Source: Antrihabitans stalagmiti
GTDB taxonomy: Bacteria > Actinomycetota > Actinomycetes > Mycobacteriales > Mycobacteriaceae
Reading direction: 5' to 3'
Length of the DNA stretch: 64,000 nt
NCBI RefSeq assembly: GCF_016482825.1
Contig: NZ_JAEMNV010000002.1
Location: forward strand, 620,001 to 684,000
The notes under the pieces were generated by a model, which worked only from the letters and a program-made list of their open reading frames with translations, was not told where the DNA came from and made no database searches. The translations under genes were made by a program, and so were the position numbers. This document shows, piece after piece, positions 17,488 to 44,946 of the stretch; within the stretch, counting starts at the first letter, position 1, and every line of letters begins with the position of its first letter.

Positions 17488-17541
17488 GCCAACCCCATCG
17501 TCGCGCGTACGGTAAGGCTCACGCTACAACACGGTCAACAG

Positions 17542-27822: not shown

Positions 27823-27845
27823 TATACTTGCTTAGCCTTACCTAC
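27823..27845 (+). promoter_or_regulatory. IdeR/DtxR-like iron box overlapping a -10 element
   Basis: The 19-mer at 27827-27845 matches the IdeR consensus (a TTAGG-type inverted repeat with core GGTTAGGCTAACC) at about 14 positions, including TTAGCCT and ACCTA. A perfect -10-like TATACT (27823-27828) overlaps its left edge. Binding of iron-loaded IdeR here would block the promoter of the lipoprotein gene 65 bases downstream. Inferred by eye. Confidence 0.6.
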
Positions 27846-27909: not shown

Positions 27910-28887
27910 TTGAGCACAAATCGAACATCCGCGCGCGGGTGGCGGAAGGTCGCGGCCGCGATGCTGGTGAGCGGACTCGCGCTCACCGCCGTGGCGTGTG
28001 GTTCCGACACCGGCGAGGCGGGTAACTCCGACAACTCCATCACCATCAAGCACCAAAAGGGCGAGACGACGATCGAAGGCACACCCACCCGGATCGTTGC
28101 GATCGGCAACCAGTGGATCGACGCCACACTGTCCCTCGGCGTCACACCGGTCGGTTACGTCGACAACATCGCCGTCGTCGGCGGCGGCAAGTCCGCGCCG
28201 TGGGAACCCGCAGCACTGCAGGACGGCGAGTCCCTCAAACCGACCGCCGAGCTGGTCGAACAGATCGCAGCACTGAACCCGGATCTGATTCTCGCATCAG
28301 GATTCGCCGTCGATCAGGCCAAGTACGACCAGCTGAGCAAGCTGGCACCGACGATCAGCGACATCGGGTCCGCGCAGGTCGATCCCTGGGGAGATCAAGT
28401 CTCGACACTCGGCCGTGTTCTGAACAAGGAAGCCGAGGCCGAGAAGGTCATCGCGGACGTCAACGGTCAGATCGATGCGGTCGCGAAGAAGTACCCCGGC
28501 CTGCAGGGCAAGACCTTCCTGACATGCTTCCTCGCGGGCGCGACGCAGTTGATGGTGCTCGCCGATCCCAAGGACGGCAGTAGCGAGATGTTCATCAAGC
28601 TCGGCATGTCGGTGCCACCGAAGTTGGCAGAGGAATCGAGCAAAGGCGGACGGCTGGCGCTGTCACCTGAACGTTTCGGCGATCTGACCTCCGACCTGCT
28701 CGTCGCGACCGGTCAGGAGGAGCCGTACAAGAAGCTTCCCGCGTACGCGACGCTGCCGTCGGTCGAGAAGGGCAGCATCATCTTCCTCGACATCGTCGAT
28801 ATCAGCGGTCTGAACCAGCCGACGCCGCTGTCGTTGCCGTACCTGCTGAAGAAACTCGAGCCTGCGCTCGCGAATGCCGCCAAGTAA
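27910..28887 (+). CDS. Iron-siderophore ABC transporter substrate-binding lipoprotein (FecB/FepB type)
   Basis: A 325-residue periplasmic-binding-type lipoprotein that would capture ferric siderophore at the cell surface. The signal peptide (about residues 10-29) ends at a lipobox-like AVAC with Cys30. The two-lobed TroA/FecB fold is shown by PTRIVAIGNQWIDATLSLGVTPVGY near the N-terminus, AALNPDLILASGFAVDQAKYDQL in the middle, and KGSIIFLDIVDI near the end. A TTG start is used. An iron box and a TATACT lie upstream and a strong terminator follows, so it is a single-gene iron-repressed unit at the edge of the siderophore cluster. No permease or ATPase gene is nearby. Confidence 0.88.
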   Translation: MSTNRTSARGWRKVAAAMLVSGLALTAVACGSDTGEAGNSDNSITIKHQKGETTIEGTPTRIVAIGNQWIDATLSLGVTPVGYVDNIAVVGGGKSAPWEPAALQDGESLKPTAELVEQIAALNPDLILASGFAVDQAKYDQLSKLAPTISDIGSAQVDPWGDQVSTLGRVLNKEAEAEKVIADVNGQIDAVAKKYPGLQGKTFLTCFLAGATQLMVLADPKDGSSEMFIKLGMSVPPKLAEESSKGGRLALSPERFGDLTSDLLVATGQEEPYKKLPAYATLPSVEKGSIIFLDIVDISGLNQPTPLSLPYLLKKLEPALANAAK

Positions 28888-28994: not shown

Positions 28995-31900
28995 TCAGCG
29001 CGACGACCACGACGCCTGCAGACCCGCAAGTGCATCCGCGCTCAGGCCCGATGCCGACATCGGCTCGTGGCGGTGGTCCTCCCCCGCCTCGGTTGCCTCT
29101 TCGACCTCGGGCGGGTTCGCGATCGCGTCGTCGACCGCCGCCGCCAGCTCGGTGATCGTGAGGTGCTCGAACACGAGCTGCGGCGTCAGCGGCAGACCCG
29201 CTTCGATCGCACGCGCGGACCACTGAATCGAGATCACGCTGTCGCCCCCGAGCGCGAAGAACCCGTCCTCGCCGTCGACGTCCTCGATCTCGAGCAGCTC
29301 CTCGAGGATCGCGATGAGCTGGCGTTCGGTGTCGGAGGTCGATGCCACGCCCGACTCACCAACCGGACGAACAACTTTGTCCGCGCGCGGCGCGGGCGTC
29401 CGATTCGGATCCCAGCCGGCCGGGACGACGTCCAAGCCGCTCAACGTCGCATCGGGTGTCGCAGCGAACGCGTCGAGCACACCTACCAATGTGTCGGCAA
29501 TGACGTCCGCAGTTGCGACGTCGTAGATGTCGGAGTTGACGACAACCCGCACCGTCACCTCACCGCTGTCCTCCACGACGAAGTCGAGATGGAAGTCCAT
29601 AAACGCGACGACGTAGTCCGGCGACTTCGAGACGATCGTCGTGCTGCCGTCTTCGGAGAAAGCCATCCGCTGACCGCGGTAGCGGAAGTGCATCATGACC
29701 TGGAACAGCGGGTTCCGAGACAGGGAGCGCGCAGGGTTGATCGTCTCGACGAGCCGCTCGAACGGCGTGTCCTGATGGCTGATCGCCCCGAGCGCTGCGT
29801 CACGGCCGCGCCGGAGCACGGTCCGCAGCGTCGGATCACCCGACAGATCGGTACGCAACACGACGACGTTGGCGAAGAGGCCGATCAGATCGTTGGTCGT
29901 GTCGCCGACCCGATTGGCAACGGCTGCACCGATAGTCGTGTCCTCGCCTGCGCCGAGCGCAGCCATCATCGTTGCCGCGGCCGACTGGAACGCCATGAAC
30001 TCGGTCGCACCGATCTCGTCGGCGAGCGCCTTGAACGTGGTCCACGTAGCCGCTGGAACAGTGCGGCGAACCATGTCTCCGGTGCGCCCGAGCCGAGCGG
30101 GCCGTTCCCGGTCCCGAGCGACCGTGATCTCTGCCGGGACATCGGCAAGCGCCTTGTGCCAGTAGTCGATCTGCCCGCGACCGAACGGGCTCAATTCGCC
30201 GCCGCCGGGCGCGTGGTCGAACATCTCGCGCTGCCACATCGCGTAGTCGGCGTACTGAATGTCGAGTGTCGGCCACGCCGTCGGCGCCTCGTTGCGCAGC
30301 CTGGCCCGATAGGCGACCGTGAGGTCTTCGACGAAGATCTTGTTGGACCGATCGTCGGCGATGATGTGGTGCATCAGCACGGTCAGCACGTGCGTCTTCG
30401 CGTCCACTGCGAACAGACGCACCCGAACGAGCGGCTCGTTGGACAGGTCGAAGTCGTATTTGACGTCGCTGGCCAGCTCGTCGTCGACCGCCTCGACACT
30501 GTCGACCTCGACGATCGGCACGACGAACTCGTCGATCGGGTGCACGAACTGGTACGGATTGCCCTCGTGTTCGAGGAAGGTCGTGCGCAGCGACTCGTGG
30601 CGGGCGACGACGTCGCCGACCGCAGTGATCAGCGCGGCCCGGTCCAGTGGTCCGTCGAACCGCAGCCCGAACGGAACGTTCTCACCTTGGCCCGCGCCTT
30701 CCAGCTTGCGCTGGAACCAATAGGCACGCTGCGAGTAGGCGAGCGGAACATGTTCTCCCCGTTCGCGTTTGCCGACCGCCGGACGACCGGACGCCCGCAC
30801 CTCGGCGCCGATGTCGGGGTCGGGGCCTTCGTCTTCGAGCTCGTCGAGATCGATGTCGTATTCCTCGCGGAACTGCTCGACGAGCACGCCGGCGAGACCG
30901 CTGACCGTCGGAGTGTCGAACGGAACGCGCACGTCGATCTCCAGACCGAATTCGGCGCGAATCATCGTGACCAGACGTGCCGCAAGCAGCGAGTGCCCGC
31001 CGAGTTCGAAGAACGAGTCATCCGCGCCGACCCGATCGCAATTGAAGATGGTGCCGTAGAGCGCACTGACCCGAATCTCGGTCGGCGTCATCGGTTCCCG
31101 GTATTCGCGGACAACGCTCAGCACGGGCGCCGGCAATGCACGCCGGTCCAGTTTGCCGTGTGCGGTGAGCGGGATCTCGTCGATCACGGCGATCGACGCG
31201 GGCACCATGTACTCCGGCAGTATCGCCCCGACGTAGCCCCTGACCTGATCGATGTCCAGCTCGAGTCCTGCCACCGGTACGGCATACGCAGCGAGGAACG
31301 TGCCGAGGGTCTTGTTCTCCGACACGACGACCACACAGTGTGCGACGCCTGGGTGCGCTGCGACCGCAGCCTCGACCTCACCGAGCTCGATGCGGTAGCC
31401 GCGGATCTTGACCTGCTCGTCCGCGCGGCCGACGAATTCGATGTCTCCGTTGGTATTTCGTCGAGCAAGATCGCCGGTTCGGTAGAGCCGTTTGCCCGGC
31501 AGGAACGGATCGGCGACGAAACGCTCGGCAGTCAGGCCCGGCCGCCCGAGGTAACCCCTCGCGAGTTGTTCACCACCGAGATAGATCTCGGCGACGACGC
31601 CGGTCGGCACCAACTGCAACGCGTCGTCGAGCAGGTAGAGGTAGACGTTGCGGTTCGGGATACCGATCGGCACGATGCCGGTTCCCTGCGGTCCATCGAC
31701 CTCCATGTGCGTCGACGCGACGACGGCTTCGGTCGGTCCGTAATGGTTGCGGAGCTCAGCCTCGAAGATCGTTGCGAACCTGTCGGCGACCTCCCCGGGG
31801 AGCGCTTCGCCGCCGACGGGCACGTGGCGAAGTGTCTGCCATTCCTTGACCTTCGGCATCAGCAGGAACGTCGCGAGCATCGACGGCACCATGTGCACGA

Positions 31901-34061
31901 CGGTGACACCGTGCCTGATGACGAGGTCGGCGACGTAGGGCAGATCGCGGAACGCGTTCGGCTTCGGAACCACAACGCGCGCACCGAGAGTCAGCGTCAC
32001 GAAAATGTCCATCATCGACGCGTCGAAGCTGACCGACGTGGATTGCAGAACGCGGTCCGCGGGGGTCAGACCCCATTCCGCTGTGAAACCGGCAAGGTGC
32101 TCGGCAATCGCGTTGTGCGGCACCGGAACACCCTTCGGCTTGCCGGTCGAGCCTGAGGTGTAGATGACGTAGGCGATGTTCGAAGGGACCAACGCCCCGA
32201 CCCGATCGGTATCGACGGGGTTCGCGTCCGACAATGCGGTCGCGGCGTCCTCCGCTGCGGCGAGTCCCGCCACATCGAGGACCAGCTTCGGTAGGGCGTC
32301 GTCGACGAGGTAGTCGACGCGATCATCCGGATAGGCAGGATCGATGGGGAGGTAGGCGCCGCCTGCTTTCAGTACGCCAAGGGCAGCGACAACGAACTCG
32401 ACAGAGGTTGACAGCTGCAGCGCAACGACGTCTTCCGGGCCGACCCGCTGACCGATCAGCCAGTGCGCCAACCGATTGGCTCGCGCGTTCAACTCCGCGT
32501 AGCTGAGCTCGACGTCGTCGGACGCCAACGCGATCGGATCCGGTGTTGCAGCAACTCGAGCCTCGAACATCGCGGTCAACGTAGTTGCAGGCTCGTCGAC
32601 CAGACCACCGTGCGAGCTGGCGACGATGTCCGCGCGTCCGGCTGCCCCGAGGATATCGATGTCTCCGATTCGCTTGTGCGGCGCTGCGATTGCTGCTTCG
32701 AGGAATCCGACGTAGTGCTCGAGTAGCTGCGCGACTAGCGTTTCGTCGAGGGCATCGACGAGGTAGGTCGCCTCGACGCGAGCCGAGCCGCCTGCCTGAT
32801 CGAACACGACCATCAACCCGAGTGGCTCGGCGGCGACAGAACTGCCGAGCTCCAGCTGCGTCGACTCGATACCCGAGAGGGCAAAACCGTCTGCGTTACC
32901 GCGTGCACTGAAGCTCAGCTGAACAAGCTGCGCGATACCGTCCTGCCCACCGACCCGTGCTGGATTGACCTCGCGCACAACCCGATCGATACCGACGCTC
33001 TGGTGAGCGAATGCGGCACTGCACGCAGCCCTTGTCGAATCGACGACGGCATCGAACGTATCCGCGCGACCGAAGTCGGACCGCACGAGCAAGGCGTTGC
33101 CGAAATATCCGATGACCGCATCGGAACCACGGCCTCGCCGCGTCGTCACCGGGACCGAAACCACAAAATCCGTTGCGGCCGTATAGCGGTAGATCAGTGC
33201 GTCGAATGCGGCGAGCAGCACCATAAACGGCGTCGCCGAGTGTTGCTGCCCGTAGCCGGCGACCCGTGCCATCAACTCCGCTGGCAGTTGCGCGGTGATC
33301 TTGTCTGCGGTCTTCGACACCGCGGCCACACCTGATTGCGATCCAGGGAGGTCGAGCCGCTCCGGCAGCGGCGTCAGCACGTTGCGCCAGTAGTCGAGAG
33401 CAGCGGCATCGGCGGACTCGTCTGTGCCTGTATCGACTGCAACATCGAGGTATTGCGCGACGAGATCAGGCAACTCGGCACCGTTGTAGGCCGCATTCAC
33501 CTCGGTGAAGAACACCGGCCACGACTCGTCGTCCCAGCCGATGTGGTGCACCACGATCGATAGGACGTGCTCGTCGGCGCCGACCCGCGTCAACGAGACC
33601 CGCAACGGCAGATCCTTCGACAGGTCGAACGGGCGCGCAAAGCTGCGCCGCACCAGAACTTCGAGGCGACGAGTCCGCTTGTCCTCGGCGAGGTCGGTGA
33701 GATCGTGCTGCTGCCAGGACAACTCGGCCTCGTCCGTCGACACCTGATACGGCTCGCCCGTCTCGTCGACCTGATAGGTCGTGCGCAGGACCTCGTGCCG
33801 GGCGACGACGGTGGCGAACGCGTCCCGAAGGCGCTGCGGATCCAATGGACCGGTCAGCCGGAAGGCAACGCATACGTTGAGTGTGGTGTCCTTCGGATCC
33901 AGCTTCTGCACGAACCACATGCGGTGCTGAGCCGACGACAGCGGGCTTGGGGTTCCTGCCGCACGCTTGGGCGCAGGTGCCGATTCGGCCGTCGCCAAGC
34001 CACTTTCGCGCAAGCGCTGCTGCATCAGTTGCTTGCGGCGTTCGAGAATATCGTCTGACAT
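28995..34061 (-). CDS. mbtE: Non-ribosomal peptide synthetase, C-A-T-C-T (MbtE-like)
   Basis: A 1688-residue NRPS acting in siderophore peptide assembly. Domains in order: condensation (about 40-460, HHIGWDD at 172-178), adenylation (about 490-960, A3 motif YTSGSTGKPKG near 640, FDASMMD at the specificity pocket), thiolation (LGGHSL near 1024), second condensation (about 1100-1530, HHIIADD near 1232), and a final thiolation (LGGDSVI near 1609). There is no thioesterase. Length and domain order agree with MbtE as I remember it (about 1680 residues, lysine-activating); the substrate here is not read from sequence. Both condensation domains have Asp in place of the usual last Gly of HHxxxDG. It is the last gene of the operon, 54 bases after the other NRPS. 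Confidence 0.82.
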   Translation of the reverse strand: MSDDILERRKQLMQQRLRESGLATAESAPAPKRAAGTPSPLSSAQHRMWFVQKLDPKDTTLNVCVAFRLTGPLDPQRLRDAFATVVARHEVLRTTYQVDETGEPYQVSTDEAELSWQQHDLTDLAEDKRTRRLEVLVRRSFARPFDLSKDLPLRVSLTRVGADEHVLSIVVHHIGWDDESWPVFFTEVNAAYNGAELPDLVAQYLDVAVDTGTDESADAAALDYWRNVLTPLPERLDLPGSQSGVAAVSKTADKITAQLPAELMARVAGYGQQHSATPFMVLLAAFDALIYRYTAATDFVVSVPVTTRRGRGSDAVIGYFGNALLVRSDFGRADTFDAVVDSTRAACSAAFAHQSVGIDRVVREVNPARVGGQDGIAQLVQLSFSARGNADGFALSGIESTQLELGSSVAAEPLGLMVVFDQAGGSARVEATYLVDALDETLVAQLLEHYVGFLEAAIAAPHKRIGDIDILGAAGRADIVASSHGGLVDEPATTLTAMFEARVAATPDPIALASDDVELSYAELNARANRLAHWLIGQRVGPEDVVALQLSTSVEFVVAALGVLKAGGAYLPIDPAYPDDRVDYLVDDALPKLVLDVAGLAAAEDAATALSDANPVDTDRVGALVPSNIAYVIYTSGSTGKPKGVPVPHNAIAEHLAGFTAEWGLTPADRVLQSTSVSFDASMMDIFVTLTLGARVVVPKPNAFRDLPYVADLVIRHGVTVVHMVPSMLATFLLMPKVKEWQTLRHVPVGGEALPGEVADRFATIFEAELRNHYGPTEAVVASTHMEVDGPQGTGIVPIGIPNRNVYLYLLDDALQLVPTGVVAEIYLGGEQLARGYLGRPGLTAERFVADPFLPGKRLYRTGDLARRNTNGDIEFVGRADEQVKIRGYRIELGEVEAAVAAHPGVAHCVVVVSENKTLGTFLAAYAVPVAGLELDIDQVRGYVGAILPEYMVPASIAVIDEIPLTAHGKLDRRALPAPVLSVVREYREPMTPTEIRVSALYGTIFNCDRVGADDSFFELGGHSLLAARLVTMIRAEFGLEIDVRVPFDTPTVSGLAGVLVEQFREEYDIDLDELEDEGPDPDIGAEVRASGRPAVGKRERGEHVPLAYSQRAYWFQRKLEGAGQGENVPFGLRFDGPLDRAALITAVGDVVARHESLRTTFLEHEGNPYQFVHPIDEFVVPIVEVDSVEAVDDELASDVKYDFDLSNEPLVRVRLFAVDAKTHVLTVLMHHIIADDRSNKIFVEDLTVAYRARLRNEAPTAWPTLDIQYADYAMWQREMFDHAPGGGELSPFGRGQIDYWHKALADVPAEITVARDRERPARLGRTGDMVRRTVPAATWTTFKALADEIGATEFMAFQSAAATMMAALGAGEDTTIGAAVANRVGDTTNDLIGLFANVVVLRTDLSGDPTLRTVLRRGRDAALGAISHQDTPFERLVETINPARSLSRNPLFQVMMHFRYRGQRMAFSEDGSTTIVSKSPDYVVAFMDFHLDFVVEDSGEVTVRVVVNSDIYDVATADVIADTLVGVLDAFAATPDATLSGLDVVPAGWDPNRTPAPRADKVVRPVGESGVASTSDTERQLIAILEELLEIEDVDGEDGFFALGGDSVISIQWSARAIEAGLPLTPQLVFEHLTITELAAAVDDAIANPPEVEEATEAGEDHRHEPMSASGLSADALAGLQASWSSR

Positions 34062-34115
34062 TGCTGGCTGTCCTTCTATCGGTTCAAAACTTCGTCAACT
34101 GGTAAAGAGCGCAGG

Positions 34116-37100
34116 TCATAGGGCGGCGGTCAGTGCGGCCACGGCGTCGTGCCACAGTTCGGCGATCCGCTCGACCTGCTCGGCGGTGAACACCGCGGCA
34201 CTCCAGCGCAGCAGGGTGATCAGTTGCGGTCCGTCCGGTGTGGATTGCACGCCGGCGATCACGTCGAGTGGATAGCGCAGCGGGAAATCCGGCTCGGGGA
34301 CGACCGGAAGATATTGCTGCAGTTCCAGATCGCCGATCGGTGCCCATGGCGCCCCGACCGACCCGGCCATGCCGAGGTCGAGCCTGCCGAGGTAGTCGAA
34401 CATGATCTGGGGCTCTGGTGCGGCAACCAATTCGGGGACCTGATCGATGTAGCGGAGCAGTCCGTAGTCGACGCCGTTGTTCGGGACCGCGCCGACCCGC
34501 TCGGCAACAGTGGCCAGCACAGCACGCGCCGCACTCGGATCAGCCTGCGCTGCCAACACATTCACCGCGTCTGCGCCGTGTCCGAAACGCGCGGGGAAGA
34601 CGCTTGTGAACCAACCGACGGTTTGACTCGTGTCGACGGCGTCGCCGAGCACCGCGTCCTCTCTGCCATGGCCTTCCATTGCCACATACGCGCCCGCCGC
34701 TGGATCTGCGCCGGTCTCGGAGCGCCAGGCAGCCAGGGTCACGGTGACTGCAGCGAGCAGAAACTCCCGTACGCCAATATCTTTGGTGAGCCCACCCAAT
34801 ATCGTCGCGGTTGCCTCGACCGAGGTCGATGCCGGGACGAAGCTGTACGACGACCAGGTATCGGTGCGCGGATCGACTCGTCGCGATCCGAGTGTCGGGT
34901 CCGGCGTGCCGGACTGACTCAGCCAGTAGTCGAGTTGCGCGGTGACCTCAGGGGTGCCCGCCCGCTGCCGGGTCAGGTCGGCCCACTGCCGGTAGCCGGT
35001 GAACTCGACGACCGGCTTCGGCGCGGTACCCGATTCCAACTGCTCCCAACTTCGTGCGAGATCGTTGAACACAACCTGCCAGGACACCGGATCCACCGCG
35101 AGGTGATGGATGCTCAGCAGCAGAACGTCGTCGGCATCGTCGCGGGCGAACCACACAGCGCGGACCATCGAACCGGACCGCGGATCGATCTCGTCCACCG
35201 TCGCACGTGCGTGCCGCTGCAGCGTCGGCCCGAACTCGCCCTCGGACTCGACTCTGCTCAGCACGTCCGCAGCCCGAACACTTCCCGGCTCGCGGCTGCT
35301 CAGGGTGTAACCGTCCGCTGTCTCCGCGAAACGGGAACGGAGCATGTCGTGCCCGTCCAACAGCACCTGCAGTACGGTTTCCAGACCTGTCCGATCGATG
35401 CCGGCAGGCAGGTTGACAAGCATGTTCAACGCGAGCCTGCGATAGCCGCCGAACTCGTGCATCCACGACACGATCGGCACCGGACCCACATCGCCGTAGC
35501 CGAACGACTCCGCCGAGTAGTCGTCGACCGAGCGGTTGTCGATTGCTTCGGCGAGATCGCGAATCGTCTGCGCCGCAAGGATCATTCGCGGACTGATCGC
35601 CAGATCGGCACGCCGCAGCGAGTTGACCAAGGCGATCGCTGCGATGCTGTCGAGACCGAGGTCGACGAGATCGTCGTCGATGCCTGGTTGGGCTCCACCC
35701 TGCAATTCTGCGAACACCGAGCACAACGTGCGCTCCGTGGCCGTCTGTGGCGCCGAATCCACGCCTGCAGCAACGCGATAGGCGTCCTGTGCGAGTTTTG
35801 TCAGAGCGCGCACGTCGAGTTTGCCGTTTGTCGTCACCGGTAATTGCGGCACGGTGAGAACCCGCGACGGAATCATGTATCCGGGCAGATGTTGCGACAG
35901 CGCAACGCGCAATCGAGCCTGCTCCAGATCCGAACCCACGGCAAAGCCAACGAGGGTCGGTCCGCTCGGTCGCGCAAGCACGACAACCGCTGCGGCATCG
36001 ACACCCGACAACCGCAGCAGCGCCGTCTCGATGTCGCCGATCTCGATGCGGTAGCCCCTGATCTTGACCTGATCGTCGGCACGGCCGAGATAGCCGATAT
36101 CCCCGGACGGCAAGCGCCGCACCAGGTCTCCGGTCCGATACATCCGCTCCCCCGCGCGGAAGGGATCGGCAACGAAGCGGTCGGCAGTCACCGCGGGCTT
36201 ACCGACGTAGCCGCGCGCGACCTGAGCACCGGACAGATACAGTTCGCCGACCACGCCGTCGGGAACGACCCGCAGACCCGAGTCGAAGATGTAGGACGTC
36301 ATCCCGGCGACCGGACTCCCGATCGTCGGATCGACGGACGTATCGGTCACCGAGGCGACGACGGCCTCGACGGTTGTCTCGGTCGGTCCGTAGCAGTTGT
36401 GGACCGCAGTATCGGGCAACGCGCACAACCGTTTCCACAACGGTGCGCTGATCGCCTCGCCGCCGAGTGCCAGTACGGCCAGCGGTGCGCGTTCGCCTGT
36501 CAATCCTGCGGCCGCAAGTTGGGTGAACATCGACGGCGTCGTGTCGATCATGTCGATGTGATGGCGCGCGATACCCGCGACAAGGCTGTCGGCGTCGCGC
36601 ATGTCGTCGGCATCGAACAGGTGAATCGAGTGACCGTCGAGAAGGCCGATCATCGGCTGCCAGGAGGCGTCGAAGCTCAACGACCACGCGTGGGCAATCC
36701 GCAACGGCCTGTTCAGTCGGGCGAAGGCGGGTCGGTAGACGCGATCGCGGTGGTCTGCGAAATAGGCTGCTATCGCCGCGTGGGTGCCCATCACACCCTT
36801 CGGTTCACCGGTCGAGCCCGAGGTGAAGATCAGATACGCGCACTGATCCGCCCGAATCTCCACAGCCGAATCATGTCGCGCGCCATCGCTTTCGAGCGCC
36901 GATGCGACGTCGTCGGCTGTCAGCACGACCTTCGGCTTCGCCCGTCCGAGAATCGATTCGATACGAGCGTCCGGCAGGGTGATATCGATCGGAACGTAGG
37001 CAGCACCGGCGAAGAGGACACCGAGTATTGCGACGATCGACTGGGTGGAGCGCGGCATCGACAGTGCCACAACGTCTTCCGGTTCCACTCCGCGAGCGAG

Positions 37101-38579
37101 CAGCTCGCTCGCAACACTTGTTGCGGCGTGGTGCAATTCGCGATAGGTGTAGCGCTCGTGCTCGCTCGTCAACGCCACCGCGTCGGGCGTCGCGGCTACC
37201 TGCCGAGCGAACAGGCCGGCGACCGACACACCCGCAACATCCGCGGCTGGAAGCAACGGCTGTTCGGGGCGTTCCGACGGCAGCAACACGTCGAGGTCGG
37301 CAAGGCCACCGTCACCGATGTCAGGCAGTTGGCGAAGCACCGAGAGCAGCCGAGTGCCGATGTCGGGCAACGAAAGCTGCGGCAGCATTTCTTCGACTGC
37401 CTCCACGACGACGGTCAGCTCGCCGTCGAGCAGGAAGCACACAACCGCAAGCGGGTAGTGGGTCAAACTTTCGGAATGGATCGGCCGGAACTGGGTTCCA
37501 CTGCCGGTTGTGATCGGCCGCAGCACATCCGACACCGGCGCGTTCTCGTAGACGAAGAGAGTGTCGAACAGCGCGCCCTTGCCTGCCGCTCGCTGAATCG
37601 TCGACAGGCTCAGGTAGCCGTTGTCGCGCATGGCAGCAGATTCACGCTGCAGTCGTGCGCACTGGGAGACGACGCTGGACTTGTTGTCTTCCAACAGGAC
37701 CCGGACGGGGATCGTGTTGATGAACAACCCGATCATCGTCTCGACGCCCGCGAGTTCCTGCGGTCGTCCCGACACCGTCGTGCCGAACACCAAGTCGAGA
37801 CGGTCGGTGAGCCTGCTCAGTACAACCGACCAGGCGAACTGGACGACGGTGTTCATGGTCAAGCCGTTGGCGCGAGCCCAACTCTGTAGCCGGTCGGTGT
37901 CCGTAGCCTCGAGGACCTGCTTGAAGAGTTGCGGGACAACGGTATTGATGGTCGAACCGGTCCGGTCGGCGACGATCAGCGGACCACTGACCGCACCGAG
38001 ATAGTCGGCCCACTTCGCCGATGCGGCGTCGGCGTCACGGGAAGCCAGCCACCCGATGTAGTCGCGATACGGGCGCGGATCGGGCAGTGCCGCAGCCGAA
38101 CCGTTTGCCTCGTACAACGCGAACAGCTCACGGAAAAAGACGCCGAGCGACCAGCCGTCCATAAGGATGTGGTGTGCGGTGACCACCATTCGACGTGAGC
38201 CGTCCGGCAGTGTCACCAGCACGACGCGGAGCGCGGGACCGGATGCGAGATCGAAACCCGTGCGCGCTTCGGATTCGGCGAGGGCGTCGAATTCCGCTGC
38301 GCTGGCACTACGTTCGAACCACGGCAGGTCGACTCGGGTCGGGACTATCTGCACGGGCTTCGGCAGATCGCGGTCCCAGAATGCGGCGCGCAGATTCGCG
38401 TGCCGGTCCAGGATGACCTCGACGCAGCGCCGCAGCAACGCCGCATCTACCGGTCCGCCGACTTCGATCACGAACTGCATCGTGTACAGGTCGTCGTCGC
38501 CTGCCAGACGCGCGAGCGAGAACAGCCCCTCCTGGAGCGGACTCAGTGCGAGAACGTCTTCGATCTCCGGTGCGCTCAC
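34116..38579 (-). CDS. mbtF: Non-ribosomal peptide synthetase, C-A-T-E (MbtF-like)
   Basis: A 1487-residue NRPS. It has a condensation domain (HHILMDG near residue 136), an adenylation domain (FTSGSTGEPKG near 588, FDASWQP pocket), and a thiolation domain (LGLDSI near 976). The C-terminal condensation-superfamily domain carries epimerase-type signatures: HHLAVDPVSW near 1158, EGHGRED near 1290, YGLLRY near 1376 and FDYLGR near 1395. Its size is close to MbtF of mycobacteria (about 1460, from memory), which activates the terminal lysine, and it likewise lacks a thioesterase. GTG start overlaps the PKS stop by four bases. The gene stands before the MbtE-like gene, the reverse of the mycobacterial order, so the orthology is inferred from architecture only. 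Confidence 0.8.
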   Translation of the reverse strand: MSAPEIEDVLALSPLQEGLFSLARLAGDDDLYTMQFVIEVGGPVDAALLRRCVEVILDRHANLRAAFWDRDLPKPVQIVPTRVDLPWFERSASAAEFDALAESEARTGFDLASGPALRVVLVTLPDGSRRMVVTAHHILMDGWSLGVFFRELFALYEANGSAAALPDPRPYRDYIGWLASRDADAASAKWADYLGAVSGPLIVADRTGSTINTVVPQLFKQVLEATDTDRLQSWARANGLTMNTVVQFAWSVVLSRLTDRLDLVFGTTVSGRPQELAGVETMIGLFINTIPVRVLLEDNKSSVVSQCARLQRESAAMRDNGYLSLSTIQRAAGKGALFDTLFVYENAPVSDVLRPITTGSGTQFRPIHSESLTHYPLAVVCFLLDGELTVVVEAVEEMLPQLSLPDIGTRLLSVLRQLPDIGDGGLADLDVLLPSERPEQPLLPAADVAGVSVAGLFARQVAATPDAVALTSEHERYTYRELHHAATSVASELLARGVEPEDVVALSMPRSTQSIVAILGVLFAGAAYVPIDITLPDARIESILGRAKPKVVLTADDVASALESDGARHDSAVEIRADQCAYLIFTSGSTGEPKGVMGTHAAIAAYFADHRDRVYRPAFARLNRPLRIAHAWSLSFDASWQPMIGLLDGHSIHLFDADDMRDADSLVAGIARHHIDMIDTTPSMFTQLAAAGLTGERAPLAVLALGGEAISAPLWKRLCALPDTAVHNCYGPTETTVEAVVASVTDTSVDPTIGSPVAGMTSYIFDSGLRVVPDGVVGELYLSGAQVARGYVGKPAVTADRFVADPFRAGERMYRTGDLVRRLPSGDIGYLGRADDQVKIRGYRIEIGDIETALLRLSGVDAAAVVVLARPSGPTLVGFAVGSDLEQARLRVALSQHLPGYMIPSRVLTVPQLPVTTNGKLDVRALTKLAQDAYRVAAGVDSAPQTATERTLCSVFAELQGGAQPGIDDDLVDLGLDSIAAIALVNSLRRADLAISPRMILAAQTIRDLAEAIDNRSVDDYSAESFGYGDVGPVPIVSWMHEFGGYRRLALNMLVNLPAGIDRTGLETVLQVLLDGHDMLRSRFAETADGYTLSSREPGSVRAADVLSRVESEGEFGPTLQRHARATVDEIDPRSGSMVRAVWFARDDADDVLLLSIHHLAVDPVSWQVVFNDLARSWEQLESGTAPKPVVEFTGYRQWADLTRQRAGTPEVTAQLDYWLSQSGTPDPTLGSRRVDPRTDTWSSYSFVPASTSVEATATILGGLTKDIGVREFLLAAVTVTLAAWRSETGADPAAGAYVAMEGHGREDAVLGDAVDTSQTVGWFTSVFPARFGHGADAVNVLAAQADPSAARAVLATVAERVGAVPNNGVDYGLLRYIDQVPELVAAPEPQIMFDYLGRLDLGMAGSVGAPWAPIGDLELQQYLPVVPEPDFPLRYPLDVIAGVQSTPDGPQLITLLRWSAAVFTAEQVERIAELWHDAVAALTAAL

Positions 38580-41500
38580 GAGTGAACACCGCCATCGGAC
38601 ATCAGCGCTACGACATCGTCGAGCGAGGCACCACCCATGATCGCCGTGACAGGCAACTCGCGATTCAACTCCACCTTGATCCGCTTTCGCAGATCGAGTG
38701 CCTGCAACGAATCCAGTCCGAGCGCAACGAGCGGTGTCGAACCGTCGACCGAGTCGGAACCGTCCGCGCCCATCACCCGGTCGAGTTCGCGGCGAACGCG
38801 CTCGGCAAACGAGGCCACCGCCGCTTCGGGCGTGACCGCAGGTGAGGTTGACGCGGCTGCGATCGGCGCACGAGGCTCAGGGGCGGGCACCGCCTCGGTG
38901 ACCGCCGGTACCTCGACGACCGCCTGCTCGACAGCGGTGAGACCCGGTGCGAACACGGGATCCAACCCGATCGCATCGGCGATCGAACGCAGCCGCGACC
39001 ATTCCGCAGAGACGACGATGCTGTTGGTGTCGGTGTGGTCGAAGCCTGCTGCGATCGCCGCGGCCGGGTGCATCGCAACAAGCCCTGAACCCTTGACCCG
39101 AGCGTGCACCGACTCGTCGGCCTGCGCAGGAAGGACCCACAGTCCCCATTGCACCGACGTGCAGTCGCGTCCCTGCGCCCGCAGCCGGTAGGCGATCGAA
39201 TCGAGGATGCGGTTGGTACCCGCGTACAACGTCTGACCCCAGCCACCGAGCGTCGCCGCGAACGAGGAGCAGAGCAACAGTCTGCAATCGTCGGTGAGCG
39301 GTACGGCGTTCACGACATTGTCGAGCCCGATGATCTTCGACGCCGCGGATGCTACGGCCGAGTGCGCGTCGACATCGGAGGACACCGAGTACACGTAGTT
39401 GACGGCAGCATGTACGAGAACGCTCACAGGATTGTCGGCGAACCCTGCCGCGAGGTCCGCGACCGCCGACTCGTCGGAGATGTCGCATGCCACAACGACG
39501 ACCTCGGTCGACCCGAGCGCCCGGATCTCCCGAAGTCGCTGTGCCGTCGCCGCAGTCTCACCGCTGCGGCTGACCAGGGTGATCCGCCCGGCGCCGTCGC
39601 GAACGAACTGCTCGCAGAATTCGAGCCCGACGTGACCGGTGCCGCCGAGAACGAGCACGTTGCGCAGGTCTCGTGGTTCGGCGGCAGGTGCCGCGTCGGT
39701 CGCTACGAGACGCTTCGCGTGCAACTTGCCCTCGCGCAGAGCGAGTTCCGGTTCGTTCGCGGTATGAACGGCGTCGAGTATGCGATCGGCAAGCGTGACA
39801 TCGTCGACCGTCGAAAGGTCCGCGGGCAGGTCGAGGTGACGCAACGTCTTGCCGATGTGTTCCATTGCGATGCAACGGAATCCGGCAGCGACGGCGCTGT
39901 GTACCGACCCCGGCACCTCGGCGTCGACAACGGCCTCACCACCGCTGGTCACGACCCACCACTCGTCGACATCATCGCCGAGTACCGCTGCCCAGTCACG
40001 ACTTCCGATGAAGTCTGCGAACTCGGAAACTGCTGAGGCGTAGTCTGATTCGGCAGTCGGCGGCACGAGGATCACCACGGTGTCGCCGGCCTCGCCGTCG
40101 AGGTTGACGGTCGCATCATGCCGCGAAGCGCGCTGTGCAATGGCCGCGGCCAGCGCCGAGCTTCGGCCGTCGGGGTCGATCAACCGGATCGTGCGTGGCG
40201 CAACCAATTTGCGGCGCGCCAGCCGCGGCCACTCCTCCACGAGGCGAGCCGGCGGTGTCATTGCCGCCGTGGCCGAGACCGACACCACACGCGCGGGCGG
40301 GGCATAGGGCGCCCACAGGTGTCGCGAGTTCATCTGGGTGTGCGGGAAGTCTCGCAGCGGCGGAACAGCCGCGCTCGCAGTGGAATCGTCTCGGAGGCTG
40401 TCCCACGAGTAGTCGAGATCGGCGACTGCGACCGTTGCGACGTTGCGGGTGAATTCGCGCAGGTCGGTCTCGGTGCGACGCGATGTGCCGATCACCTGAT
40501 AGTCGCGGTCGGGTGCCGAGCTCAACGTCTCCTGCACAGCGAGCATCAGGGTCGGATGTTCGGCAATCTCGATGTACGTGTCGATACCGCGGTCGGCCGC
40601 GCCTGCGACCGCGAGGTCGAACCGCACGCGATTTCGCAGATTCCAGAACCAGTAGTCGGCGACGGGGAACTCACTCGTGATCGCGCCTCCCAGTGTGGCT
40701 CCGAGGCAATCGATCTCGGGAACCGCGAACTCCTTGTTGTCCAAATCCTCTGCTACCGAGGTGAATTGGTCCCGGAACTGGTTCACCATCGACGTGTGTG
40801 CCGGGTACTGAACCCGAATCTCCTTGGCGAACCGTCCGCGCGCGTTGACCAGTTCGACGATCTGCAACACGGTGTCCCTGTCGCCGGAGATGCACAACAG
40901 ATGGGCAGAGTTCACGACCGACAGCTCGGTCCACCCGGTCTGTCTGGCGATCAGCGCTTCGCACTCGTCACGATCGATGCCGAGTACCGCCATCGAGTAG
41001 CCGGAAAGGGACAGCGCGGCAACCGCATTCGCCCGAATGGTGACCACCCGAATCGCATCGGCAAGCGTGGACGCCCCCGACACGTACACAGCGGCGATCT
41101 CCCCCTGGCTGTGCCCGACCGTCGCCGCCGGTTCGATACCTGCGGCGCGCCACATCGCAGCAAGACCGACCATCTGCATCAGCAGAGCAGGCTGGACGAT
41201 CTCGACAGCGTCGGGACGCTCGCCGTCCTTCGTCGAATCGTGCAGCAGGTAGGCCAGCGGCGAGATTCCGAACAACCGCGCGAAATGCTCTTCCGCTTCG
41301 TCGACAGCCTTCCGGAACACCGGCGACTGGCTGTAGAACATTCGCCCCATACCTGGGTACTGGCTGCCCTGACCCGGAAAGACGTAGGCCCGCTTCCGCT
41401 TCGTCGCAGGACCGATCGAGGTGACAACTTTCGGATTCGGGCTGTCCTCCACGATCGACGTCAGCGCTGCGTCGAGCTCGCTCCGGTCACGAACCATCGC

Positions 41501-41683
41501 CAGCGCGCGGAACCGCCGCGCGGTCCGTGTCCGAAACAGCGTCGCGGCAACCTGCGCGGGCGTCACATCCGGACGCTGCGCGAGATAGTCGAGTAGCGCG
41601 ACGGCCTCCCGCTGCAACGCCTCCCGCGTGTCCGCAGAGAGCAGCACCGGTGTTGTGCCGTCGGGCAGCAGGTACCTAGACAA
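38576..41683 (-). CDS. mbtD: Polyketide synthase AT-KR-ACP subunit (MbtD-like)
   Basis: A 1035-residue PKS subunit without a ketosynthase. It has an acyltransferase domain (AYVFPGQGSQYPGMG near residue 95, GHSQGE with the catalytic Ser near 192), a ketoreductase (VLVLGGTGHVGLEF near 679, then SFAATLGGWGQTLYAGTN), and a C-terminal ACP (LGLDSLQ near 990). It would pair with the upstream separate ketosynthase to insert the beta-hydroxy acid unit, as MbtC/MbtD do. The TTG start at 41683 is chosen because GAGGAG lies seven bases upstream; it overlaps the ketosynthase gene by eight bases. The open frame upstream of that TTG is a shadow of the ketosynthase. Confidence 0.87.
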   Translation of the reverse strand: MSRYLLPDGTTPVLLSADTREALQREAVALLDYLAQRPDVTPAQVAATLFRTRTARRFRALAMVRDRSELDAALTSIVEDSPNPKVVTSIGPATKRKRAYVFPGQGSQYPGMGRMFYSQSPVFRKAVDEAEEHFARLFGISPLAYLLHDSTKDGERPDAVEIVQPALLMQMVGLAAMWRAAGIEPAATVGHSQGEIAAVYVSGASTLADAIRVVTIRANAVAALSLSGYSMAVLGIDRDECEALIARQTGWTELSVVNSAHLLCISGDRDTVLQIVELVNARGRFAKEIRVQYPAHTSMVNQFRDQFTSVAEDLDNKEFAVPEIDCLGATLGGAITSEFPVADYWFWNLRNRVRFDLAVAGAADRGIDTYIEIAEHPTLMLAVQETLSSAPDRDYQVIGTSRRTETDLREFTRNVATVAVADLDYSWDSLRDDSTASAAVPPLRDFPHTQMNSRHLWAPYAPPARVVSVSATAAMTPPARLVEEWPRLARRKLVAPRTIRLIDPDGRSSALAAAIAQRASRHDATVNLDGEAGDTVVILVPPTAESDYASAVSEFADFIGSRDWAAVLGDDVDEWWVVTSGGEAVVDAEVPGSVHSAVAAGFRCIAMEHIGKTLRHLDLPADLSTVDDVTLADRILDAVHTANEPELALREGKLHAKRLVATDAAPAAEPRDLRNVLVLGGTGHVGLEFCEQFVRDGAGRITLVSRSGETAATAQRLREIRALGSTEVVVVACDISDESAVADLAAGFADNPVSVLVHAAVNYVYSVSSDVDAHSAVASAASKIIGLDNVVNAVPLTDDCRLLLCSSFAATLGGWGQTLYAGTNRILDSIAYRLRAQGRDCTSVQWGLWVLPAQADESVHARVKGSGLVAMHPAAAIAAGFDHTDTNSIVVSAEWSRLRSIADAIGLDPVFAPGLTAVEQAVVEVPAVTEAVPAPEPRAPIAAASTSPAVTPEAAVASFAERVRRELDRVMGADGSDSVDGSTPLVALGLDSLQALDLRKRIKVELNRELPVTAIMGGASLDDVVALMSDGGVHS

Positions 41684-43031
41684 GGTTCGACTCCTCGAGA
41701 ACTGGCATCGCGATAATGCCGTGAGCGTTGGTTCCTGCCACGCCGAACGACGACACCGCGCCGTATCGGACGCCGTCGCGCGGCTCCCACGGTTCGAGCT
41801 TGGCGGCCAAACGCAGGGTGGTTGCGTCCCAATTCGTCGCCGTCGTCGGGTCGTCCGCGTACAGACTCGGCGCGATCTGACCGTTAACGCCGCAGAGCAG
41901 CAACTTGATGAGGCCGAGCATGCCCGCCGCTGCTTGCGCGTGGCCGACGTTGGTTTTGACCGAGCCGAGCCGCGGTCCGCGTGTCGACAGTTCCGGGTCG
42001 CCATAGGTCTTGCACAGCGCATCGAGCTCGAGCGGATCGCCGACGGGGGTTCCGGTCCCGTGCCCTTCGATGACATCGACAAGCTCCGCCGATATCCCTG
42101 CCGCGGCAATCGTGTTGCGCACCAACCGCTCCTGCGCGGGAGCGCTGGGAACGACGATCGGCGCACCCTTGCCGTTGTGATTGATTCGGGTGGCGAGCAC
42201 GCGTCCATACACCCGGTGACCGAGGCTGCGGGCACGCGATTCACGTTCCACCACAACAACTCCCGCACCTTCACCCCAGACCGTTCCGGTCGCGCTCTCG
42301 GAGTAGGCGCGGATCCGACCGTCGGTGGCCAGCGCGTTGTTCTTGGCGAATTCGTAGAACGCTGCGGGCGAACCCATGACGCAGACTGCGCCCGCGAGTG
42401 CCCATTCGCATTCGTCACCACGGATCGCAGCGGCAGCCTGATGCAAAGCCGTCAGCGACGAAGCGCACGCCGTATCGACGGTGACCGACGGCCCGGTGAG
42501 GCCGAGGCAGTGCGAGATCCGACCTGCAACCGCGCCCAACGCGGTGCCGACGACGCGATAGCCACTGAGGTCGTTCACTTCGGCTGCCCGAGGTCCGTAC
42601 TCGGAGATCGACGCTCCCATAAAGACGCCGACCTCGTCGCCGTCGAGCGTGGCAGGGTTGATGCCGGCATGTTCGAGTGCTCGCCAGGCAACGCGCAGAA
42701 TCACCCGCTGCTGCGGATCCATCGCGATCGCTTCCCGGGGTGTGATCCCGAAGAACGCCGGATCGAACTCGGTCGCACCGTCGAGGAAGCCACCGGCGTC
42801 ACGGACCGCACCCCAGCCTTCGACCTGATCGAGGGCAAGGAGTTCGTCGAGTGGCCATTCCCGATCACGCGGGAAGCGGCCGATCAGATCTCGTCCGTCG
42901 GCCAACGCCGACCAGTACGCGGGCAGGCTGTCGATGCCTCCCGGCGCTTCGACGCCCATTCCGGCGATGACGATGTGGTCGACCTCGCCGGACGCTGTTT
43001 CGGTCGACGAATCGGGTGAAGTGGGTGTCAT
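41676..43031 (-). CDS. mbtC: Stand-alone beta-ketoacyl synthase (MbtC-like)
   Basis: A 451-residue PKS ketosynthase. The catalytic triad is intact: Cys in VDTACASSLTALHQA, His in EGHGTGTPVGDPLE, and His in KTNVGHAQAAAG. The splitting of one PKS module into a free KS and a separate AT-KR-ACP protein is the mark of mycobactin and nocobactin clusters. ATG at 43031 follows an AGAGG at seven bases; a longer in-frame start (43073) would overlap the thioesterase gene and adds a non-conserved stretch. Confidence 0.88.
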   Translation of the reverse strand: MTPTSPDSSTETASGEVDHIVIAGMGVEAPGGIDSLPAYWSALADGRDLIGRFPRDREWPLDELLALDQVEGWGAVRDAGGFLDGATEFDPAFFGITPREAIAMDPQQRVILRVAWRALEHAGINPATLDGDEVGVFMGASISEYGPRAAEVNDLSGYRVVGTALGAVAGRISHCLGLTGPSVTVDTACASSLTALHQAAAAIRGDECEWALAGAVCVMGSPAAFYEFAKNNALATDGRIRAYSESATGTVWGEGAGVVVVERESRARSLGHRVYGRVLATRINHNGKGAPIVVPSAPAQERLVRNTIAAAGISAELVDVIEGHGTGTPVGDPLELDALCKTYGDPELSTRGPRLGSVKTNVGHAQAAAGMLGLIKLLLCGVNGQIAPSLYADDPTTATNWDATTLRLAAKLEPWEPRDGVRYGAVSSFGVAGTNAHGIIAMPVLEESNLV

Positions 43032-43056
43032 TGTGAGCCTCTCGGGTCGACCCGAA

Positions 43057-43812
43057 CTAGCGTGCGGACGCAACTTCGGATTCGAGCAGTTCGCCGATGC
43101 CGTCGACGTTGTCGTTCAAGTAGAAGTGCCCGCCGTCGAAGAGGGTGACCTCGATGTCCTGTTCGCTGTGCTTGGCCCAGCCGTGCAGTTCGCGAGCGGT
43201 GACGTAGTCGTCCTCGGATCCGCCCATTACGTGAATTCGACTGCGCACCTTGACCTCCGGCGAGCATTCGTAGGCGTCGAAGGCCTGATAGTCGGCTTTG
43301 AGCGCAGGCAGTGCAAGCTTCATCACGTCGCGACTGGCAAGTACGGCGGCACCGGTCCCGTTGAGTGCTGCGAGGTGATTCAGCAGGTCTTCGTCACGCG
43401 TTGGATGGGAGGGCATGTCGACCACCCGCGACGGCGATACCGCTCCCGAGGCACCGAGCAGACCGACCTCGATGCCTGCGGCTTCTGCCTGTCGCACGAA
43501 TTCGAAGCCCACCATTGCGCCCATGCTGTGCCCGAACACGGTGATGGGAACGTCACGGTTGTATTCGGAGGTCACGAATTCCGCGAGCGCACCGGCAGCA
43601 AGTTCGCCGATGCTCGTCGCCATCGGCTCCTTCCCGCGGTCCTGGCGGCCCGGGTACTGGAAGATGATGACGTCGAAGTTCGCGCTGAGTGCCTTCGAGA
43701 AAGTCCGATAGGCCGACGCCCCTGTTCCCGCGTGCGGGAAGATCAGCAGCGGCAACGCCGAGGTCGAGCTCGGCTTGTGGAACTTGCGAATCCAACCAAC
43801 GGTTTTCGGCAT
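43057..43812 (-). CDS. mbtT: Type II thioesterase (MbtT/GrsT-like)
   Basis: A 251-residue alpha/beta hydrolase of the external thioesterase family that clears misprimed or stalled carrier domains of NRPS/PKS lines. Motifs: LLIFPHAGTGASAYR at the N-terminus, FGHSMGAMVGFE with the nucleophile near residue 94, and FDGGHFYLND with the catalytic His. ATG at 43812 has AGGAG seven bases upstream; the open frame before it is not conserved. It is the first gene of the siderophore operon, downstream of an IdeR-like box. Confidence 0.88.
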   Translation of the reverse strand: MPKTVGWIRKFHKPSSTSALPLLIFPHAGTGASAYRTFSKALSANFDVIIFQYPGRQDRGKEPMATSIGELAAGALAEFVTSEYNRDVPITVFGHSMGAMVGFEFVRQAEAAGIEVGLLGASGAVSPSRVVDMPSHPTRDEDLLNHLAALNGTGAAVLASRDVMKLALPALKADYQAFDAYECSPEVKVRSRIHVMGGSEDDYVTARELHGWAKHSEQDIEVTLFDGGHFYLNDNVDGIGELLESEVASAR

Positions 43813-43929
43813 ATCACTGCTCCTGCGGTAGCGGAGTTGACTCCTGAGGTAGCCACCGCGGCGAGAACAGCGGGCTGGAACAGGTGGAACCGACCGCACG
43901 CAACGACTAGCTAGTCCAACTCATCGAAT

Positions 43930-43948
43930 GTTGGTTAGCATAACCTAT
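43930..43948 (-). promoter_or_regulatory. IdeR/DtxR-like iron box of the siderophore operon
   Basis: The 19-mer contains GGTTAGCATAACCTA and matches the IdeR consensus at about 15 of 19 positions, with near-perfect symmetry. A -10-like TATGCT on the minus strand lies inside it (43937-43942), 118 bases before the thioesterase start. A 12-bp palindrome GACTAGCTAGTC (43905-43916) lies between box and gene. Iron-loaded IdeR bound here would block the operon. Confidence 0.72.
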
Positions 43949-43962
43949 GCCACGCGTGGGAA

Positions 43963-43981
43963 CATGCGTAGGCTTACCTAA
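43963..43981 (+). promoter_or_regulatory. Second IdeR-like site in the same divergent region
   Basis: The right part TAGGCTTACCTAA fits one and a half IdeR half-sites (12 of 13 positions), while the left part is poor. It lies 49 bases before the divergent secreted-protein gene, so it may regulate that gene or assist binding at the better box 15 bases away. Confidence 0.5.
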
Positions 43982-44029
43982 CCCTGCTGTCGCAGAACAG
44001 CGGACACACACAGATTGGCAAGGACGACT

Positions 44030-44494
44030 ATGACTCACTGGAAGAGAGCGGCAACCTTCACAGCCGCGGCGATCATCGCCACCTTCGGACTGCTCGCAGG
44101 CCCGACGGCAATCGGCTCGGCAGCACCGAGCGAACTCCCCATTCAGCAGGTCGCGGCACCGACGACCGGCCAGCTGCGCGCCAATCTCGCAACCGCCGTC
44201 GACATCAGCTTGCCGCGCTCGGTTCGTGGTGCAGCGCTGGAAGCCGGCGAAGCCGGACTCGGCCAGGTCGACACCGTCGCGGGTCTGCTCGCCGCCGCGC
44301 CCCCGAGCTTCCGCTGGGACATCACCGGTCCGGTCAACGTGAACGGCGACACCGCAACCGCGACACTGTTCACCGCCACCGACGGCTACGACCCGTGGAC
44401 CACACAGCTCACCTGGCGCGAGATCGACGGTCAGTGGAAGCTCTCGCGTGAAGGCCAGTGTGCACTCGGCCAGTTCCTCGCCCTGCCCTGCTGA
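44030..44494 (+). CDS. Small secreted protein, MTB12/CFP-2-like
   Basis: A 154-residue exported protein. Signal peptide about residues 1-33 (MTHWKRAATFTAAAIIATFG core, cleavage after GSAA). The mature part resembles the C-terminal domain of the mycobacterial low-molecular-weight antigen MTB12: an ALEAGEAGL motif, ITGPVNVNGDTATATLF, and LTWREIDGQWKLSREGQCAL, with a C-terminal Cys pair likely to form a disulphide. The function of the family is not known to me. ATG at 44030 follows AAGGA. It is transcribed away from the siderophore operon across a region with two iron-box-like sites, which suggests iron-regulated secretion. Confidence 0.7.
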   Translation: MTHWKRAATFTAAAIIATFGLLAGPTAIGSAAPSELPIQQVAAPTTGQLRANLATAVDISLPRSVRGAALEAGEAGLGQVDTVAGLLAAAPPSFRWDITGPVNVNGDTATATLFTATDGYDPWTTQLTWREIDGQWKLSREGQCALGQFLALPC

Positions 44495-44661: not shown

Positions 44662-44946
44662 TTACTTCGCGCGCTCGAGCACCTCGACCAAACGCCAGCG
44701 CTTGGTCGCAGAGGTCGGGCGGGTCTCCATCAGCTGGACGCGATCGCCGACACCAGCGGTGCTGTTCTCGTCGTGCGCCTTCACCTTGGTGGTGCGACGG
44801 ATGATCTTGCCGTACAGGGGATGCTTCACGCGGTCTTCGAGCTCGACCACGATCGTCTTCTGCATCTTGTCCGAGACCACGTAGCCGGTCCGGACCTTCC
44901 GACGGTTACGTACTTCTTCCGTGCTCACTGCTTTGTCCTCACTCAT
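44662..44946 (-). CDS. rpsQ: 30S ribosomal protein S17
   Basis: S17, 94 residues: [20 protein letters not shown], then the segment [16 protein letters not shown] and [19 protein letters not shown]. It overlaps rpmC by four bases and is the last gene of the S10 operon here, ended by an intrinsic terminator. Confidence 0.97.

Follow-up and report, generated by a model that had tools for sequence, protein, structure and literature searches.

The exported MTB12-like protein P0001 of Antrihabitans stalagmiti, 154 aa long and encoded at 44030..44494 on the + strand of the window (that is, of the whole 64-kb stretch of DNA analysed), could quite possibly be an envelope factor that is repressed by iron and handles siderophore, most likely together with a PF01497 binding protein. 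Such a role is supported by linkage to siderophore genes at 43 of 63 homologous loci and by iron boxes at 50 of 57 homologs, and comparison of the genomes argues strongly for iron regulation and siderophore linkage of the family. Family-wide boxes, a repeated operon partnership with PF01497 genes, and the position of MTB12 at the end of a mycobactin operon, the last being a finding that goes beyond the first-pass annotation, make P0001 and the MTB12 family candidates for the envelope step of siderophore passage; when Rv0455c was discovered, the proteins that take siderophores across the periplasm and outer membrane of mycobacteria were described as unknown (PMC9042941). MTB12, or CFP-2, is a long-studied tuberculosis antigen, and an orphan family would thus gain a testable role in the passage of siderophores through the envelope. 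No statement on the function of MTB12/CFP-2 was found in the literature searched, and the open-licence literature searched contained no paper giving the MTB12 family a siderophore role, which is not proof of novelty. The MTB12/LppK/WKL family as such is already known; no description of its siderophore-linked branch, the family-wide boxes or the anchored architecture turned up in the searches.

The P0001 gene is an open frame without a stop, for which homologs are known. The N-terminus of the translated product carries a Sec-type signal of approximately residues 1–32 (44030..44125, + strand), comprising KR, a hydrophobic stretch and then SAA-P; the cleavage point was placed by eye, and model confidence (pLDDT) is below 50 for residues 1–32. 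The mature MTB12-like head, residues 44–154 (44159..44491, + strand), was delimited by the structural model, by its Foldseek match to PDB entry 8z9b and by the profile match to MTB12. It ends in a cysteine pair, C144–C154 (44459..44491, + strand), which is kept in at least 90% of the aligned family, is missing from MTB12, and probably forms a disulfide. Residues 1–143 are free of cysteine, so there is no lipobox cysteine of the kind that marks the WKL lipoproteins.

P0001 alone found no MTB12 match by pairwise PDB search or in Pfam, and fell into no Pfam family at all; the Pfam blank means little, since mycobacterial MTB12 was unmatched in the same Pfam copy too. A profile of 33 family sequences including P0001 (A1) matched chain B of 8z9b, “Low molecular weight antigen MTB12,” with E=3e-7 and over 111 of 120 positions. 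The AlphaFold model of P0001, built from four sequences only, has pLDDT values of about 76–92 from residue 41 on and predicts a head with three helices, four strands, and a helix at its end. In the Foldseek comparison with the PDB, 8z9b was the sole match below 0.001 (E=6.4e-4, probability 1.00, TM 0.46/0.60); weaker matches (E >0.05) were to NTF2/cystatin-like and periplasmic lipid-binding folds. The resemblance of the mature protein to MTB12, initially noticed by eye, thus holds for both profile and fold. NCBIfam divides the superfamily into MTB12, LppK (NF053526), and WKL (NF053527) models, and P0001 passes none: it reaches 51.1 bits (E=1.4e-13) with the WKL family lipoprotein model, under the curated cut-off of 105 bits, and does not match the MTB12 equivalog NF053528 (cut-off 125 bits) at E<=0.01. 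Since MTB12 itself matches all three models, LppK and WKL proteins belong to the same superfamily, of which P0001 is a further member by profile and predicted fold. MTB12 (Rv2376c) and P0001 thus share the domain and are both secreted; they differ in the cysteine pair and are only about 23% identical in the structural alignment. A scan of viral contigs revealed no relatives of P0001.

The gene is divergent from a thioesterase gene and the nocobactin-type cluster behind it, with a gap of 217 bp (43813–44029). The NbtT-like thioesterase gene (43057..43812, − strand; PF00975 E 7.5e-46) is the first of the divergent siderophore operon, and is followed on the same strand by genes for an NbtB/MbtC-like ketosynthase (41676..43031, start set at an internal ATG; 76% identity to the KS adjoining the Nocardia panacis homolog), the NbtC polyketide synthase (38576..41680, start approximate; NF037941 1386 bits, cut-off 1150), an NRPS with condensation, adenylation, and carrier domains according to the domain search (34116..38579), and an NRPS with two condensation and two carrier domains (28995..34061; 62–63% to the NRPS adjoining Nocardia homologs). 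The opposite end of the cluster has, on the + strand, the gene for a PF01497 ferric-siderophore-type ABC binding lipoprotein (27910..28887; PF01497 E 9.4e-21), the best NCBIfam matches of which are Fe3+ uptake binding proteins, under cut-off. The convergent neighbor of the P0001 gene is rpsQ, encoding S17 (44662..44946, − strand), which the homolog also adjoins at loci L046, L066 and L103; at L066 and L103 the MTB12-like gene is Cys-less, has its own box, and no siderophore cluster is found there. The nocobactin-type cluster (28995–43812) is closer to that of Nocardia panacis (TE 67%, KS 76%) than to those of three sister species (L176–L181; TE 58–60%, KS 70–72%), which are located elsewhere and are without an MTB12-like gene; a gain or a replacement is possible.

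Putative iron boxes were scored against the IdeR/DtxR consensus TWAGGTWAGSCTWACCTWA of 19 positions and are given here without strand. Two of them lie in the 217-bp gap, box 1 (43930..43948, GTTGGTTAGCATAACCTAT) on the side of the siderophore operon and box 2 (43963..43981, CATGCGTAGGCTTACCTAA) 49 bp before the ATG of P0001; both agree with the consensus at 15 of 19 positions. Together with the open frame and the signal, they bear out the original description of a 154-residue exported protein transcribed divergently from siderophore genes across two iron-box-like sites. A further 15/19 box is found upstream of the PF01497 binding lipoprotein gene (27827..27845). Altogether the 64-kb window contains four sites of at least 15/19, compared to 0.017 expected from a dinucleotide (Markov-1) model, and two of the four are those in the gap; the boxes are degenerate, with four mismatches each, and no site in the window has three mismatches or fewer. 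Box 2 lines up with the box preceding the genes of five relatives, three of them Nocardia, in a block TAGGCTTACCT; an operator-like element conserved in relatives, as would be expected for a member of an IdeR/DtxR regulon, thus precedes P0001. Two Fe-dependent repressor genes are present in the A. stalagmiti genome. Scanning the gap for sigma-70 promoters, which is a weak test for actinobacteria, gave no match. A 15/19 site at 17508–17526 lies about 20 bp before a gene for a PF03583 secretory lipase (16192–17487, − strand).

Within the family, boxes of at least 14/19 were counted upstream of the head domain in a fixed window, with windows of equal size from the rest of the same loci as controls. 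The 50 homologs with such a box compare to 35 of 1,432 control windows (odds ratio 285); at 15/19 or better the counts are 45 of 57 and 31 of 1,432, respectively. As loci within one genus are not independent, the safer figure is that of genera, 17 of 19 of which have a box of at least 15/19. That the boxes are a mere property of the adjoining siderophore operon was considered and rejected because they also precede homologs without such neighbors (a box of at least 14/19 in 11 of 17 loci lacking any siderophore gene). In the A. stalagmiti genome, boxes are found at the P0001 gene and two paralogs, whereas the two tandem WKL genes and three other paralogs have none; P0001 differs from WKL proteins in lying under the NF053527 cut-off and lacking a lipobox, and its gene differs from this tandem pair in having boxes. 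LppK-like lipoprotein homologs resemble P0001 in having iron boxes: at L092, L094, L097, L100, L101, and L102, a box of the type TCATGTTAGCCTYRCCTRM is located just upstream, in conserved housekeeping surroundings with no siderophore gene near. A separate branch of the family (L085, L087, L088, L093, L095, L099) directly precedes an ABC-transporter ATPase gene; there the fixed window contains a box in L085, L093, and L095, and none in L087, L088, and L099.

For the linkage analysis, 201 genomes of the GTDB family Mycobacteriaceae were searched, with sequence similarity (E<=1e-8) as the sole criterion for a homolog; homologs occur in 64 of these genomes and 22 of 31 genera, and three Nocardia matches were added to the set. 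A lack of co-occurrence with siderophore genes had been named in advance, next to a lack of iron response, as what would count against the siderophore idea; the search in relatives found linkage at 43 of the 63 loci instead, in about 16 genera. Siderophore biosynthesis genes are near in 22 loci, an adjacent PF01497 gene in 13, both in 8, and neither in 20; the six paralog regions of A. stalagmiti have neither. A PF01497 gene is the commonest single partner, located within 700 bp in 21 loci, mostly as the gene that comes next in the same orientation; other neighbor groups assigned by Pfam are Lys/Orn monooxygenase, GNAT, formyltransferase, and siderophore-interacting protein. Three layouts recur: the homolog is divergent from MbtG-Fmt-NRPS (Nocardia type, as in A. 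stalagmiti), is embedded as PKS>homolog>NRPS (genera g9, g11), or is closely followed by the PF01497 gene (g6, g7, g9, g13, g16, g18, g23, g27, g28); in g19, g23, and g25 the PF01497 gene is divergent from the homolog. The family of P0001 thus keeps siderophore genes as conserved companions. Universal linkage was rejected: among 40 genomes with a mycobactin/nocobactin-type PKS, counted manually, the homolog lies no more than about 35 kb from the PKS and on its contig in 23, and on a different contig next to MbtG or NRPS genes in 4, with about 2 of 40 expected by chance according to a rough estimate, while 13 show no homolog near the PKS, among them three other species of the genus of A. stalagmiti. 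A protein of the P0001 type is thus not strictly needed for nocobactin production. In an order-wide sample all 27 genomes with matches fall in the Mycobacteriaceae, which is what a mycolic-acid-based envelope would lead one to expect.

MTB12 itself adjoins siderophore genes, following MbtG-MbtH. With the MTB12 segment from the PDB alignment as query, close orthologs (about 79%) were found only in g29, and in genome G123 of this set the gene order is TE-KS-PKS-NRPS-NRPS-MbtG-MbtH-MTB12-like-MTB12, on one strand throughout; in G135 and G069, NRPS-MbtG is followed by the MTB12-like/MTB12 pair. In these tandem pairs (G123, L162; G069, L161; G135, L160) the second copy is about 47% identical and sits between MTB12 and MbtG-MbtH. 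A published M. avium table has mbtH, a hypothetical protein, and MTB12 as consecutive entries (PMC5206733). Unlike the P0001 gene, the mycobacterial MTB12 copies have no box of at least 14/19 directly upstream, and a listing of the phoP regulon includes Rv2376c (PMC2883559), so that MTB12 may have lost iron control or come under it through the operon.

How P0001 might act can be envisaged as follows. Upon iron limitation, an IdeR/DtxR-type repressor would leave the shared intergenic boxes and, as their being shared suggests, the siderophore operon and the P0001 gene would be switched on together. The exported NTF2/cystatin-like head would act in the periplasm or the mycomembrane space, where it may bind or escort the amphiphilic siderophore; ferric siderophore would most likely be delivered to the PF01497 binding lipoprotein, or P0001 would work with this lipoprotein. 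Other genera have the same head fixed to the inner membrane through a conserved TM helix and a Pro/Ala-rich arm, and its gene stands beside a PF01497 gene or within a mycobactin-type operon. Computation shows the export signal, the boxes, the conserved linkage, and the MTB12 homology and fold class, whereas how the repressor acts, which ligand and partner are involved, and which way transport runs are inferred. The 13 of 40 unlinked PKS genomes and the relatives beside rpsQ without a cluster (L066, L103) weigh against this picture, as do the boxless MTB12 orthologs, the phoP listing, and the four mismatches of the boxes in the window.

The direction of transport might be the opposite one. Rv0455c, a protein of the DUF5078 family (PF16877), is a small exported disulfide protein required for siderophore secretion and is found in Mycobacterium and close genera (PMC9042941); in the genomes examined here, DUF5078 above cut-off is confined to g29 and g8, which leaves an opening for a secretion factor in other genera. 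That P0001 replaces Rv0455c where the latter is absent, passing new siderophore outwards from the inner-membrane exporter through the periplasm, is somewhat unlikely in our estimation. P0001 is likewise small, exported, tied to siderophores and equipped with a conserved Cys pair, the genus distributions of the two families are nearly complementary, and in g9 and g11 the homolog is embedded in the biosynthetic operon; the commonest single partner of the family, however, is an uptake-type binding protein, g29 has both MTB12-family genes and DUF5078, and the folds differ, DUF5078 being all-helical and P0001 having a helix-strand head. Membership of P0001 in DUF5078 was rejected, as PF16877 did not match it, and no DUF5078 protein is encoded in the A. 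stalagmiti genome. It is also conceivable, and still unlikely, that P0001 is a general iron-starvation envelope protein acting on lipid or wall rather than on siderophore, its place near siderophore genes being one of regulatory convenience. Boxes at homologs without siderophore genes (e.g., between mpa-like and hisG genes), the many paralogs per genome, and the weak likeness of the head to periplasmic phospholipid-binding folds would fit this, but not the repeated and independent-looking tie, in three layouts, to genes of siderophore biosynthesis and uptake.

Among the functions originally proposed for the gene product, siderophore handling retains the support of linkage and boxes, while heme binding and iron release do not stand. 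For a hemophore or iron-release protein speak only the iron-linked position and the export signal. Mature P0001 has no His, no Met, and a single Tyr, which is outside the columns conserved family-wide, and no column of A1 that is invariant or nearly so holds a His, Tyr, or Met as heme ligand; with the Cys pair looking like a disulfide, heme would have to be bound without visible ligands. As P0001 has neither a cofactor nor a reductase domain, nothing reductase-like hints at iron release, and both functions are most improbable.

The family comprises secreted short forms (P0001, Nocardia, MTB12), lipoproteins (LppK-like), and membrane-anchored forms. Many homologs are of the anchored type and consist of a conserved TM helix, a Pro/Ala-rich linker of 70–108 aa, and the MTB12-like head, with mean pairwise identities of 64% (TM helix), 35% (linker), and 43% (head). 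TonB has a TM helix, a Pro/Ala-rich arm, and a small C-terminal head. The anchored homologs share this architecture and a linkage to siderophore genes; the comparison is one of architecture alone. No relation to TonB in sequence or fold was found, and P0001 has neither anchor nor arm. It is improbable that the anchored forms act as the arm in a device for siderophore uptake at the mycolic-acid outer membrane, a convergent TonB analog in which the conserved small-residue TM helix would couple to an inner-membrane partner, the Pro/Ala arm would span the periplasm, and the head would meet siderophore or a mycomembrane receptor, P0001 and MTB12 being shuttle versions of the head. In the tree, which is based on few columns and has deep forks without resolution, P0001 groups with three Nocardia homologs and L046 (g19), all beside MbtG, in a clade that has support (97); a wider clade of 15 rows (96) takes in box-bearing copies without a cluster, two of them beside rpsQ. 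The strong conservation of the anchored TM helix suggests that it has a membrane partner: in twelve sequences from ten genera G5, A8, S11, A12, G18, and G21 are invariant, and the motif PTVVNLG usually follows the helix.
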